21,213 bases of DNA from a virus, in IMG/VR virus record IMGVR_UViG_3300024255_000193, positions 1 through 21,213 of that record; one strand, given 5' to 3'. Below are positions 8,882 through 21,213 of the stretch, piece by piece; within the stretch, counting starts at the first letter, position 1; every line of letters starts with the position of its first letter. The position numbers and the translations under genes were made by a program. A model generated the notes under the pieces. The model saw only the letters and a program-made list of their open reading frames with translations, ran no database searches and had not been told where the DNA came from.

Positions 8882-9380
8882 CTTTGTCAAGTTGCAATTC
8901 TGGGAAGGCATCAATAACGTTTTGTTTAGTAATTTTATAACGGTCAGTAAGTTTACCGTCTTTAACCAGGTCAATCATGTCAGCTTCTTCAGGATGCAAT
9001 CCTTCAAGTAACTGAACCCACATCTGTTCCTTCTTTAGTTGTTGGATGCGAGGTTTAGGACTTCCAGAGCAACCATAATACACCACACCATTCACTCTTT
9101 TCTTGATGAACTTATCAATGAACCTGTGTTCAGTGAAGAGTCTCTGGTGATCAACACCTTTTGGTTTGGTTGTTCTGGCGTAAGGTGTCTTACCAGGTGG
9201 GAACATAAACCTGATGTTGGTGGCGAAGTTACATAGTAGAACTTTGGTAAGTGCAGGTGACTTATACTCCCTCAGGATGGATACTTTTTCTGCTTTTGTT
9301 TTAGCGTTAGACACTCTCTGAAGCACTTCAGAGATGAGTGTCTTATTAACTGGTAGTTTTGGTGTTGCTGGTCTTGCCAT
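8826..9380 (-). CDS. Conserved cyanophage protein (DUF6433-like)
   Basis: A 184-residue protein that sits directly after RNase H (TAATG overlap). The N-terminal part is helical and basic (NKTLISEVLQRVSNAKTKAE), followed by a conserved block with LLCNFATNIRFMFPPGKTPY. The C-terminal 25 residues are hydrophilic and probably disordered (KDEPRKTQSETPKSKEDSK). I believe this corresponds to the family labelled DUF6433 in other cyanomyoviruses, with no known function; its constant neighbourhood suggests a role in DNA replication. No catalytic motif is visible. Confidence 0.7.
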   Translation of the reverse strand: MARPATPKLPVNKTLISEVLQRVSNAKTKAEKVSILREYKSPALTKVLLCNFATNIRFMFPPGKTPYARTTKPKGVDHQRLFTEHRFIDKFIKKRVNGVVYYGCSGSPKPRIQQLKKEQMWVQLLEGLHPEEADMIDLVKDGKLTDRYKITKQNVIDAFPELQLDKDEPRKTQSETPKSKEDSK

Positions 9381-10222
9381 TAAGAAAATTCCTCAATCAA
9401 ATCTTGAATGTTGTTGTCAATGAAGTACTGAATTTGCAGTGATTGCTTTGGTTTACTTCTGGTAAAGAACGAAATGATCCTTTCCACCACTGGAGTTGGA
9501 ATCTTTGTGAAGTCAATCAGTTCAGAGTTCCTTTTCCAGTTACGAAGACGAATAAAATTTGTGAATTCTTGTGGGTCCATGCTCGCCAGAGAAGCAATCT
9601 TCTCTTTACTCATCTTCTTCTGTGGTTTGCCAGTGACAATTGCGTCATCACAGGTAAGGATGTTTGGGATACCATCAGATCTATCACCACGAATGATGTG
9701 TTCCTGTAAGTATGCAACTGGATTATCGTTCTCAATCCATCGGTTACGGATGGGATCATACTGTTTCACAAGAGGGTACCTGTGAAGCTGAATAAAATCT
9801 TTATCCGCGGACAAAATCAAAACAGGTTCGGGTTTATTCTGACGAAGGTTCAGTCTCACCAGTGAGGCGATCACATCATCAGCTTCTGCACCCTGAACTT
9901 GAATGACATGATAAGGAAAGTTACTCCTTATCTCATCCCTGATCTTATTTAGTACGGAAAACACCTTATCCCAATCGTATTTGGAGTTAGCTCTCTCCTT
10001 CTTACGGTTTTGCTTGTAGAAAGGAAAGACCTGGCGTCTCCAGTAGTCCTTGTCATCATAACAAAGAACCATTTTTCCATACTCAAGTCCATACTTCTTC
10101 TCAATTCGAGCAAGGACACGAACAATGGATCTCCTCACTGTCTCAACATTGATTCCATCTTCAATCTTGTGTCGCACCATCAAGTGACTGATGGCAATCT
10201 GGTTTGCATCTACTAGTATCAT
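9380..10222 (-). CDS. rnh: RNase H / FEN-type 5' nuclease
   Basis: T4 RNase H homologue, which removes RNA primers and adjacent DNA from lagging-strand fragments. The preferred start is ATG 10222 (MILVDANQIA), giving 280 residues; the open frame extends 12 codons upstream but across the promoter. The metal-binding acids of the FEN family are visible: Asp5 in LVDANQ, Asp56-57 in LCYDDKDYW, Glu113, Asp115 and Asp116 in GAEADDVIASL, Asp140 and Asp142 in SADKDF, and Asp180 and Asp183 in RGDRSDGIPNIL. Basic YKQNRKKERA would contact the DNA bridge. It is the first gene of the long replication operon and lies behind a terminator-promoter element at 10249-10284. Confidence 0.9.
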   Translation of the reverse strand: MILVDANQIAISHLMVRHKIEDGINVETVRRSIVRVLARIEKKYGLEYGKMVLCYDDKDYWRRQVFPFYKQNRKKERANSKYDWDKVFSVLNKIRDEIRSNFPYHVIQVQGAEADDVIASLVRLNLRQNKPEPVLILSADKDFIQLHRYPLVKQYDPIRNRWIENDNPVAYLQEHIIRGDRSDGIPNILTCDDAIVTGKPQKKMSKEKIASLASMDPQEFTNFIRLRNWKRNSELIDFTKIPTPVVERIISFFTRSKPKQSLQIQYFIDNNIQDLIEEFS

Positions 10223-10248
10223 TGGGGATACCCTTTGTTTACTCCTAT

Positions 10249-10277
10249 ATTTTAGCACAAAAAAGGAGGGGCGTCAA
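10249..10277 (-). promoter_or_regulatory. Sigma70-type promoter for rnh, -35 in the terminator loop
   Basis: The minus strand reads TTGACG (10277-10272), 17 bases, TAAAAT (10254-10249). The -35 hexamer is precisely the six-base loop of the terminator, and the spacer consists of the 3' stem arm, the T-tract and four more bases. A purine-rich AGGAG follows the -10. It should start the replication operon at rnh. Confidence 0.7.
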
Positions 10278-10284
10278 CCCCTCC
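10259..10284 (-). terminator. Rho-independent terminator after the 84-aa gene
   Basis: The minus strand has GGAGGGG, loop TTGACG, CCCCTCC and six T. The stem is a perfect seven base pairs, six of them G-C. It lies eleven bases past the stop of the 84-aa gene and ends the glutaredoxin operon. Confidence 0.9.
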
Positions 10285-10295
10285 CGTGTGTAGAT

Positions 10296-10550
10296 TTACA
10301 ACTCTTGAAGGTCCTCTGGATCAAACTGGTCAGGGTCATACCCAGGATCAAAATTGATAACCATGTAGTCTCCTCTGTCCAGCTCTCCGTCCTCGTCATA
10401 GAGTTCAGGGTGAGGGTTCTTCTCGAAGAGCTCTTCGTAATGGTGTCTGGTTTTTTCCATGAAGTCATGGAACCTTTCAGCTGATAACCAGCCTACGATT
10501 ACCCCAAGGATCAGGGCGACTTCTGTGAATAGGATTGTTTCGTTGGACAT
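10296..10550 (-). CDS. Single-span membrane protein with acidic tail
   Basis: An 84-residue protein with an N-terminal membrane segment (VALILGVIVGWLSAERF region, residues about 11-27) and a long acidic cytoplasmic or periplasmic tail ending DYMVINFDPGYDPDQFDPED and LQEL. It is a conserved cyanomyovirus type with no known function. The ATG is well supported by GGAG with six bases to the start. Its start overlaps the preceding small ORF by 40 bases, and a strong terminator follows. Confidence 0.75.
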   Translation of the reverse strand: MSNETILFTEVALILGVIVGWLSAERFHDFMEKTRHHYEELFEKNPHPELYDEDGELDRGDYMVINFDPGYDPDQFDPEDLQEL

Positions 10551-11919: not shown

Positions 11920-12115
11920 CGAATACTTTGCATTGTGGTGCACCAGGATGATCATCACAGAAGCTGTCAAGGAGCTTGTCCTTGTGTCGCTCTGTTGGAT
12001 CAGCAATCTTACCTTCTGTCAAGGGATCCCACTCGTCAGATGGGTGGGTTTCATTACAGTGGAGATCCACTTTGTACTTTGAGTACTTGTCGTTGGGGTC
12101 CTTTTGTACAGTCAT
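11912..12115 (-). CDS. cp12: CP12-like Calvin cycle regulator
   Basis: A 67-residue acidic protein whose C-terminus is diagnostic of CP12: CDDHPGAPQCKVFDD (residues 53-67), with the C-x8-C pair and the closing aromatic-DD that enters the GAPDH active site. CP12 shuts down GAPDH and phosphoribulokinase when oxidised; cyanophages carry it to divert carbon from the Calvin cycle to the pentose phosphate pathway and nucleotides. The N-terminal half is atypical: there is one cysteine (Cys20) rather than a pair, and the AWDxVEEL motif is reduced to SDEWDPLTEG. It may therefore bind GAPDH but regulate PRK differently. The start forms ATGA with the nusG stop. Confidence 0.82.
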   Translation of the reverse strand: MTVQKDPNDKYSKYKVDLHCNETHPSDEWDPLTEGKIADPTERHKDKLLDSFCDDHPGAPQCKVFDD

Positions 12116-12699
12116 TTTTTGTAAACCTGTTCCTTAGAAAACTCTGCTGGTACAACTCTACCAAACATGTCAAGTTGTCCAAGGATCTTATTGCCCTGGA
12201 CACTGACCACTTCACATTTGTATCCTGCAAATGGTCCATCAATAACATCTAAGATGTCACCAACTTCATAATCATTTAGCACATTTTGTTTAACCTCAAG
12301 GTGTGCATCGTCACACATATCAAACAGACGTTTGATTTCTCTTGGTTTGAATGCAATGGGTTTCTTTTGATTGCAATTCACAAAGAACTTGACGCCTGGT
12401 GTACCTAGGATAAGGTCAAAGGTTTCTGCTGGGAATGATTCTTTTATGTTCCCAAGTTCGTCCTCATCAAGGGAGGGTTTTACCTTTACCAAAAGGTAAC
12501 CAGACATGAGAAGTTTGTTCTTGACCTTACGTTTGCCTCCTTTGTCAACAACGAGTTCCTTCTTTTGTAGATACTCTACATCCAAAAGGTTCTTATCATT
12601 GAACAGTGCTCGTCTGGAAATAAGTTCTGCTTTGGTTGCCTTCTCCTTGTTCATGTTGATGGAGACTGCGTACCAGTGTTTGAAGTCTTGAAGTGACAT
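12112..12699 (-). CDS. nusG: NusG-type transcription elongation factor
   Basis: A 195-residue protein with the two-domain layout of NusG. The NGN domain runs from about residue 7 (FKHWYAVSINMNKEKATKAE) through LLMSGYLLVKVKP (63-75), the usual FPGYVLV strand, to TPGVKFF and KPIAFKPREIKRLF. The KOW domain is near 142-195: YEVGDILDVIDGPFAGYKCE and LDMFGRVVPAEFSKEQV match bacterial NusG closely. NusG binds the polymerase clamp and affects pausing, Rho termination and translation coupling. A phage copy could modify host polymerase for phage operons. The start ATG 12699 overlaps the preceding stop (TGATG). Confidence 0.88.
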   Translation of the reverse strand: MSLQDFKHWYAVSINMNKEKATKAELISRRALFNDKNLLDVEYLQKKELVVDKGGKRKVKNKLLMSGYLLVKVKPSLDEDELGNIKESFPAETFDLILGTPGVKFFVNCNQKKPIAFKPREIKRLFDMCDDAHLEVKQNVLNDYEVGDILDVIDGPFAGYKCEVVSVQGNKILGQLDMFGRVVPAEFSKEQVYKK

Positions 12700-12902
12700 C
12701 AATAAACATCCTCATAAAGGTAGTCGAGAACTGTATCATAATCTATATTGCTGTCACCTGTAAAGATAACACCAAGATTTTTATAATATTTGTAGATCTT
12801 CTTGTAAAGTTTTTGGTTGGTGCGAAGATCTGTGTCTCCAGAGATTGCCTCACGAATGGTTGGGAGGTGATCACTGAACTTGTGAAGTATTTGGGTTGCC
12901 AT
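12699..12902 (-). CDS. Hypothetical 67-aa protein
   Basis: A 67-residue protein from ATG 12902, which forms TAATG with the upstream stop. It is helical and tyrosine rich: MATQILHKFSDHLPTIREAI, then KLYKKIYKYYKNLGVIFTGD and a closing DYDTVLDYLYEDVY. No family is recognised. Its stop overlaps the nusG start, so the two are translationally coupled. Confidence 0.65.
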   Translation of the reverse strand: MATQILHKFSDHLPTIREAISGDTDLRTNQKLYKKIYKYYKNLGVIFTGDSNIDYDTVLDYLYEDVY

Positions 12903-19750: not shown

Positions 19751-20173
19751 TCAGATAACTTCAGGTTCTTCTTCAGGGAATGCCGCGATTCCGGGGATTC
19801 CTCCATCGTCAAAGGTGACGGTTGCTGTTCTAGCGTCAGCTGCTTCACTTACAATAGTGAGCGACCCAGAGCTTACTGCACAGGTTCCGGTAACTACCTC
19901 GTCTCCTGCTTCGTACTTCGACAGGTCCAGTCCAGTGTCATCTCCTTGAGTAACAAGAAGGAGACTACATTCTTTAGCAGCGTTGGTGAGAGTAGCAATA
20001 GCGACTGAGTCCTTTGCCTTATCTTGAGCTTTCAAGAGTTGTGGAAGACCAACACCAGATAGAATACCAACGATTGCAACAACAACCATCAGTTCAATCA
20101 AGGTGAATCCGTTTGCCTTCTTGCCTTTCTGTGAGAGACGACGGAGGAGAGTAGACTTGAGTGAGGTGTTCAT
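19751..20173 (-). CDS. Type IV pilin (prepilin with class III signal)
   Basis: A 140-residue prepilin. The start is ATG 20173 (MNTSLKSTLLRRLSQKGKKA), giving a 22-residue basic leader that ends in glycine. The prepilin peptidase site is G22/F23, followed by FTLIELMVVVAIVGILSGVG with the required glutamate at mature position 5. Cys69 and Cys98 probably make the pilin disulfide. The rest is short, with an acidic proline-rich end (FPEEEPEVI). Host pili of marine picocyanobacteria have pilins of this look, so the gene was probably acquired from the host. Processing would need the host peptidase PilD, as none is encoded here. The leader RNA can fold into a hairpin and no Shine-Dalgarno is seen. Confidence 0.88.
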   Translation of the reverse strand: MNTSLKSTLLRRLSQKGKKANGFTLIELMVVVAIVGILSGVGLPQLLKAQDKAKDSVAIATLTNAAKECSLLLVTQGDDTGLDLSKYEAGDEVVTGTCAVSSGSLTIVSEAADARTATVTFDDGGIPGIAAFPEEEPEVI

Positions 20174-20181
20174 TTTATTAT

Positions 20182-20215
20182 GATAGTGGAGGTTCTCCCT
20201 CCTTACCATACTATC
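20182..20215 (-). other. Hairpin in the pilin mRNA leader
   Basis: The minus strand has GATAGT, then GGAGG, loop GAGAA, CCTCC and ACTATC, with a seven-base bulge on one side. It has no T-tract, so it is unlikely to be a terminator. It lies nine bases before the pilin start and could affect translation or stability. The rest of the 100-base gap to the 93-aa gene shows no convincing promoter. Confidence 0.45.
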
Positions 20216-20273: not shown

Positions 20274-20555
20274 TCAGTCCATGACTTCATCCATGGAATA
20301 TGTCTCCACCTTACCTAGTTCAATGTCCTCAACCATTTGCATCAGATACTCCAGGAACTCTTTGGGATACACATCATCTTCATTCAACGAAACCCAGAAC
20401 CATTCTTTACACTCTTCCTCTGGGTCGTCATCGCTCATCAGCGCGTACCCATCATACCGTGATGACGTGAGATCACACCAAATGCGGAAAGTAGAGCGAA
20501 TGCTCTTCCATCCTGTCATCCAGGCGTGTCCAATCCAATACTCATACCAGTTCAT
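20274..20555 (-). CDS. Conserved acidic 93-aa cyanophage protein
   Basis: A 93-residue protein rich in tryptophan and acidic residues: MNWYEYWIGHAWMTGWKSIR at the start, TFRIWCDLTSSRYDGYAL, then DDDPEEECKEWFWVSLNEDD and the end METYSMDEVMD-like (KVETYSMDEVMD). I do not know its function; the form is one seen in other cyanomyoviruses near psbD. It has its own strong promoter in the preceding terminator (20584-20612) and no terminator follows, so the pilin genes downstream are probably on the same transcript. Confidence 0.75.
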   Translation of the reverse strand: MNWYEYWIGHAWMTGWKSIRSTFRIWCDLTSSRYDGYALMSDDDPEEECKEWFWVSLNEDDVYPKEFLEYLMQMVEDIELGKVETYSMDEVMD

Positions 20556-20866: not shown

Positions 20867-20989
20867 TTAGTTGCGTTGATAAGATGGAATCATCATTCCA
20901 CCATCCCTGTCGTCATCGTCATCAGTATCCTGAAAGACTAAGAATAATATTAAGAGGATTGTCCACCCCAGAATGTATTCAAAGTGCAT
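20867..20989 (-). CDS. 40-aa membrane micro-ORF overlapping the psbD end
   Basis: A 40-residue ORF whose ATG (20989) lies 11 bases inside the 3' end of psbD. It has a single hydrophobic helix ([15 protein letters not shown], residues about 5-19), an acidic run ([11 protein letters not shown]) and a polar end (MMIPSYQRN). The overlap suggests coupled translation with D2. It resembles small photosystem-associated membrane peptides in form only; I recall DDxDGG-type short ORFs after phage psbD. Confidence 0.6.
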
Positions 20990-21213
20990 TTCCGCGAGGC
21001 AATACTTCTTCAGGGAATACGAAGTTCTCATGTGGTTGGTCAGCAGGTGCCATCCAAGCACGGAGTCCTTCATTCAATAGAATGTTCTTCGTGTAGAAGG
21101 TCTCGAACTCAGGGTCTTCTGCTGCACGAATCTCTTGACTTACAAAATCGTAAGCACGAAGATTGAGAGCAAGCCCAATAATGCCAATAGAGGAGACCCA
21201 AAGACCCATAACA
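20979..21213 (-). CDS. psbD: Photosystem II D2 protein, C-terminal part
   Basis: The last 78 codons of psbD; the gene continues beyond the window. The sequence contains the fully conserved D2 ending: [20 protein letters not shown], then [20 protein letters not shown] and [19 protein letters not shown]2 pairs with D1 in the photosystem II reaction centre. Cyanophages carry psbD with or without psbA to keep photosynthesis running while the host proteins decay. No frameshift or odd residue is visible in this part. It heads a short operon with two small membrane ORFs that ends at the terminator at 20594. Confidence 0.97.

Follow-up and report, generated by a model that had tools for sequence, protein, structure and literature searches.

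Terminator-Promoter Cassettes in T4-Type Phages

The closest described systems are the terminator/promoter cassettes called PeSL (promoter-early stem-loop), reportedly described by Arbiol et al. in 2010 and by Comeau et al. in 2014 in the T4-type phages RB49, phi1, T4/PST and KVP40/nt-1. PMC4503421 cites these cassettes of T4-type phages; its authors noted no PeSL-dense region near the S-PM2 ORFan block. The cyanophage element described here resembles the PeSL cassettes in being a short intergenic cassette, where an intrinsic terminator is combined with what appears to be a strong sigma70-type early promoter, and in being repeated many times among small variable genes. The arrangement of the two signals is different. 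Direct scanning of RB49 and T4 showed that the promoter mostly comes after the terminator, with the -35 box starting about 17-35 nt past the stem. In the cyanophages, by contrast, the tandem order of RB49 and T4 was not found: the -35 box is the hairpin loop, the T-tract lies inside the promoter spacer and the -10 box is extended. Direct scanning of KVP40 revealed six overlapping cases. In five of them (NC_005083.2, about 59692, 85852, 100187, 121370 and 150217), TTGAC is located in the 5' stem arm, according to the pattern GGGTTGAC-loop-GTCARCCC followed by TTT and a TATTAT-like -10 box, with a spacer of 18. KVP40 therefore shares with the cyanophage module the overlap of promoter and terminator and a T-tract within the spacer, but its TTGAC is paired in the 5' arm, its spacer is mostly 18 and no TG precedes the -10 box in the cases given above. 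Since the -35 box lies in the loop and the RB49/T4 layout is tandem, the cyanophage form would be a variant rather than a plain PeSL. The loop placement thus looks like a distinct variant of the PeSL-type cassette. The original PeSL papers may already show this placement; our literature search, partial in its coverage, returned no description of a -35 box in a terminator loop.

Hairpins are also part of the promoters of the phage N4 virion RNA polymerase and of Frpo of the F plasmid, where they are recognised as structures. In N4-type promoters, a single-subunit RNA polymerase recognises an essential hairpin whose loop has 3 nt. The likeness is limited to the hairpin being part of the promoter. 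In N4 and Frpo the hairpin itself is recognised, whereas the cyanophage element has an ordinary double-stranded sigma70 layout, which is kept even where no hairpin is detected.

The Module Upstream of rnh

The window, that is the whole stretch of 21,213 nt analysed here, comes from a T4-like cyanophage and belongs to an IMG/VR record. On its minus strand, a glutaredoxin gene, a 62-aa ORF and a phrog_275 ORF (10296-10550, the last gene of the glutaredoxin operon) precede the module. The downstream operon starts with rnh (9380-10222, minus strand), coding for the T4-type RNase H (PF02739, PF09293; phrog_107), and continues with genes for a phrog_461 protein, ThyX, PhoH and a DexA-like exonuclease. 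An earlier sequence-only reading of this DNA had described, between the two operons, a 7-bp stem with the loop TTGACG and 17 bases leading to TAAAAT; this description is exact on the minus strand (10284-10249).

The terminator hairpin (10265-10284) is built from the 5' arm GGAGGGG (10284-10278) and the 3' arm CCCCTCC (10271-10265), and is supported by the scan, by RNAfold and by paired stems of different letters in relatives. Its loop TTGACG (10272-10277) is at the same time a -35 box matching TTGACA at 5/6 positions. The 3' arm is followed by the T-tract TTTTTT (10259-10264), which belongs to the terminator and lies within the promoter spacer, a layout that recurs in the rnh relatives, then by GTGC (10258-10255) and by TAAAAT (10254-10249; 5/6 match to a -10 box). 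The extended -10 box thus reads TGC-TAAAAT (10249-10257), and exactly 17 bp separate TTGACG from TAAAAT. The hairpin is supported by RNAfold (MFE -19.1 kcal/mol and z = -2.4 for a 61-nt region), which draws it with 9 pairs and a 4-nt loop UGAC because one extra G.U pair is possible at each stem end. At the sequence level, both PeSL signals are therefore present: a sigma70-like early promoter (-35 box at 5/6, spacer of 17, extended -10 box at 5/6, conserved) and a stem-loop terminator (GC hairpin with T6, whose stems vary but pair). A T4 middle or late promoter was considered and rejected, since TTGACG and TAAAAT are present, with no MotA box near -30 and no TATAAATA at -10.

This module is very likely a composite element by which T4-like cyanophages mark operon boundaries, namely an intrinsic terminator whose DNA also holds a sigma70-type promoter. 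At the RNA level, the GC hairpin and U6 would stop the transcripts of the upstream operon, as its anatomy and conservation suggest. At the DNA level, the host RNA polymerase holoenzyme, with a sigma70-type factor, would read the letters of the loop as a -35 box together with the extended -10 box, the 17-bp spacer being filled by the 3' arm, the T-tract and RTGN. On the same grounds and from promoter geometry, transcription of the rnh operon would begin about 7 nt past the -10 box, at 10242 on the minus strand. The benefit would most likely be that adjacent operons are insulated from each other by an intergenic stretch of some 70 nt.

Immediately before the rnh start codon, an AGGG...CCC sequence is observed (10235-10220, minus strand), which recurs in many rnh relatives and in S-B68 genes. 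The GGG ahead of the start could pair with the CCC across the ribosome site.

Conservation of the Module at rnh

Relatives of rnh were gathered from viral contigs (51 loci) and from named phages, and 43 non-redundant upstream regions were compared. The terminator is kept in 35 of these 43 regions, a -35 box of at least 4/6 in 41, a -10 box of at least 5/6 in 39 and the extended TG in 36. A terminator carrying a -35-like hexamer in its loop is found in 32 of the 43, that is in 32 of the 35 terminators. The -10 and -35 boxes were picked jointly in these regions, and a 4/6 match to the -35 box is expected by chance in about one region out of ten, by our estimate. At S-CRM01 and L027, the hairpin and the extended -10 box are kept and the loop -35 is absent; the S-CRM01 record annotates a Rho-independent terminator at the corresponding position.

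The letters of the stems are highly variable, with 23 distinct 5' arms among 24 curated rnh relatives, each of them self-complementary. When arms were swapped between loci, pairing fell from 0.93 to 0.47, and none of 10,000 permutations reached the observed value. As the stems vary yet still pair, and as the promoter is kept, selection at rnh appears to maintain the hairpin in the RNA as well as the promoter in the DNA.

In 8 rnh relatives no terminator was detected and all 8 retain the -35 box, which makes the promoter the more constant part of the module. These loci bear on two further explanations. An N4-type hairpin promoter was rejected, because the loop of 4-6 nt carries a sigma70 hexamer and because the promoter stands without a detected hairpin in these 8 relatives. 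Regulation of the promoter by extrusion of a DNA cruciform or hairpin is suggested by the perfect inverted repeat around the -35 box, but it is extremely unlikely: extrusion would make the -35 box single-stranded, the arms are only 6-10 bp long, the T-tract is conserved though a cruciform needs none, and the promoter persists in the eight loci where no hairpin was detected. The sequence-only reading had further imagined that cruciform formation or read-through could couple transcription end and transcription start; no support was obtained for this idea, for the first and last of these reasons.

A NusG-like protein (PF02357; phrog_6386 antiterminator), encoded on the minus strand at 12112-12702, ahead of the glutaredoxin genes, could affect read-through at the module upstream of rnh.

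A Second Copy in the Window

A scan of the whole window, in which a module was defined as a terminator with a -10 box of at least 5/6 and a -35 box of at least 5/6 in the loop, at a spacer of 16-18, detected two copies and no more. By comparison, 400 dinucleotide-shuffled versions of the window contained one module between them. The second copy, independent of the first and missed by the earlier reading, is located at 20620-20584 on the minus strand and reads CCACCTCA-TTGAC-TGGGGTGG, T6, ATTG and TATAAT, with TTGACT as the -35 box and a spacer of 17. It precedes a 93-aa phrog_31449 ORF (20274-20555). An identical module is present in L529, the only relative of the 93-aa gene to keep one; the relatives mostly occur in other contexts, without a module. 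Since most of them lack it, the second locus adds nothing to the conservation result obtained at rnh.

In the same part of the window, a type IV prepilin-like protein (PF07963; phrog_3433 'pilin') is encoded at 19751-20209 on the minus strand and adjoins a phrog_3415 protein, and the end of psbD (phrog_182) lies at 20979-21212. In marine cyanophages, a '-35' TTGCCA upstream of the psbD-end hairpin was dismissed, because it falls within the psbD coding sequence.

Spacing of Terminators and Promoters in Cyanophage Genomes

The relative positions of the two signals were studied at 205 terminators in nine cyanophage genomes, where the counts are not fully independent, homologous modules being common to related genomes. 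Extended -10 boxes cluster at 10 bp (25 cases) and 11 bp (9 cases) past the last G-C pair of the stem; at other distances there are mostly 0-2. Among the 53 terminators with a -10 box at 8-13 bp, agreement with TTGACA shows a sharp maximum at a spacer of 17, inside the loop. When their loops were swapped with those of terminators lacking such a -10 box, the matches of at least 4/6 fell from 32 to 6.8 +/- 2.3. TTGAC loops followed by a -10 box at the proper distance, for which the earlier reading had proposed to scan, are therefore enriched.

The signal for spacing and -35 box is strongest in S-B68, S-CREM2 and MA10, the marine phages having fewer modules. Syn9 has no module by the criteria used, and no module of this type was found in T4 in the genome-wide spacing test. 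The S-CRM01 genome shows the standard distance from stem to -10 box without a -35 box. For instance, at 78828, 82943, 97109 and 105711 of HQ615693.1, a terminator is followed by an extended -10 box at the standard distance, with no TTGAC in the loop. The S-CRM01 lineage seems to rely solely on promoters of the extended -10 type. Searching complete named genomes for exact TTGAC...TGNTATAAT was too strict to be informative.

The fixed distance of 10-11 bp is also an argument for a coupled hand-over as the reason why the overlap is selected. On releasing its RNA at the T-tract, the polymerase would already be placed on the next promoter and would re-initiate with sigma, so that termination upstream would feed rnh transcription. 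In vitro, the E. coli polymerase remains on the DNA after intrinsic termination and, by diffusion, reaches promoters nearby, where it re-initiates (PMC6978380). However, the elements used in that study were not overlapping, and re-initiation is said there not to be seen in vivo (PMC6978380). Furthermore, once the -35 box is in the loop, compactness alone explains the fixed distance, and promoters persist in the rnh relatives where no terminator was detected. We therefore regard such a hand-over as rather unlikely. A family-wide version, in which the loop -35 would physically couple the end of each unit to the next start, giving a sequential hand-over along the early genome, is in our opinion similarly doubtful. 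The modules are natural substrates for testing the reuse of a terminated RNA polymerase at an overlapping promoter.

Gene Setting in S-B68 and S-CREM2

In S-B68, the genes of one region (54.6-78 kb) are very small and lie about 66-78 nt apart, and most of the gaps hold a hairpin and a promoter. The repetition of PeSL cassettes in hyperplastic small-gene regions thus has a counterpart in S-B68; the window itself has two copies. These compact gaps, together with the conservation at rnh and the spacing statistics in cyanophages, support the proposal of the earlier reading that terminator and promoter form one module. One S-B68 ORF lies between two nearly identical copies, at 77259 and 77610; such copies would allow PeSL-like recombination and gene shuffling.

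Genes annotated downstream of modules in both S-B68 and S-CREM2 include rnh and a clamp-loader gene and, in S-CREM2, also those for a DNA adenine methylase and a pyrimidine dimer glycosylase. In S-B68, none of the 14 terminators with a -10 box is located in the structural block, versus 6 of the 20 without one (Fisher p = 0.03). This setting fits early or replication-class sigma70 promoters.

Some S-B68 gaps have copies without a T-tract and, in some, the -35 box is in the 5' arm. At 55398-55467, 59909-59981, 62534-62600 and 65938-66012 of MK016664.1, the hairpin encloses the -35 box in its 5' arm and the -10 box comes directly past the 3' arm, with no T-tract. These four elements would be promoter-hairpins and are not obvious terminators. 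It may be argued from such copies, formed by a hairpin around a promoter, that the hairpin is no terminator and chiefly protects the 3' end of the upstream mRNA or signals its processing, the overlap merely saving space. In most copies, including both of the window, the stem is nevertheless immediately followed by five or more T, and this explanation is quite improbable.

Breadth across Viral Contigs and Bacterial Genomes

A broader scan used the pattern TTGAC, T6, TGNTATAAT only, without demanding a hairpin. Among the matches listed for viral contigs, a GC-rich hairpin surrounds TTGAC in 42 of 116 distinct ones, for an expectation of 1.0 with a shuffled 5' arm. In bacterial genomes the same pattern comes with a hairpin in 3 of 117 matches listed. 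A pattern with a wrong spacer (22-24) gave 1 hairpin out of 18, and this one is a module containing a short internal duplication. When the cutoff was loosened slightly, 50 contigs among the matches listed have a hairpin; at least two cyanomyovirus-like proteins are encoded by 42 of these 50, versus 26 of the 70 without a hairpin, again among the matches listed. In these matches, cyanophage-like contigs are thus enriched in the loop -35 pattern, which hardly occurs in bacterial genomes.

The gaps between cyanophage genes are short, and the overlap of the two signals might have been imposed by chance in so little space. This can hardly be sustained, being contradicted by the loop-swap, spacing, shuffled-arm and bacterial-genome controls, as well as by the conservation at the rnh locus. 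Rather, many cyanophages would build their operon boundaries by a strict formula: a hairpin with a -35 loop, a T-tract and an extended -10 box. Terminator and promoter predictors would give such a module as two unrelated calls, and the module offers an easy way to delimit transcription units on contigs of uncultured cyanophages.

In contigs L170, L183, L188, L194, L204, L225, L254 and L279, a hairpin ACTGG-CAAAA(A/T)-CCAGT ends on the TT of the -35 box. The contigs bearing it are cyanophage-like.

Another hairpin is found in the leader of the glutaredoxin gene of the window (10992-10939, minus strand). A promoter-like TATAAT is followed after 1-3 nt by the start of the hairpin, which coincides with the expected start site, and the T-rich sequence after the hairpin directly abuts the ATG, with no Shine-Dalgarno sequence. 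In more than 20 relatives, the letters of this hairpin vary and its pairing stays, with AAGGTAGATTGAAA upstream. It is possibly a stabiliser of the mRNA 5' end or an attenuator.
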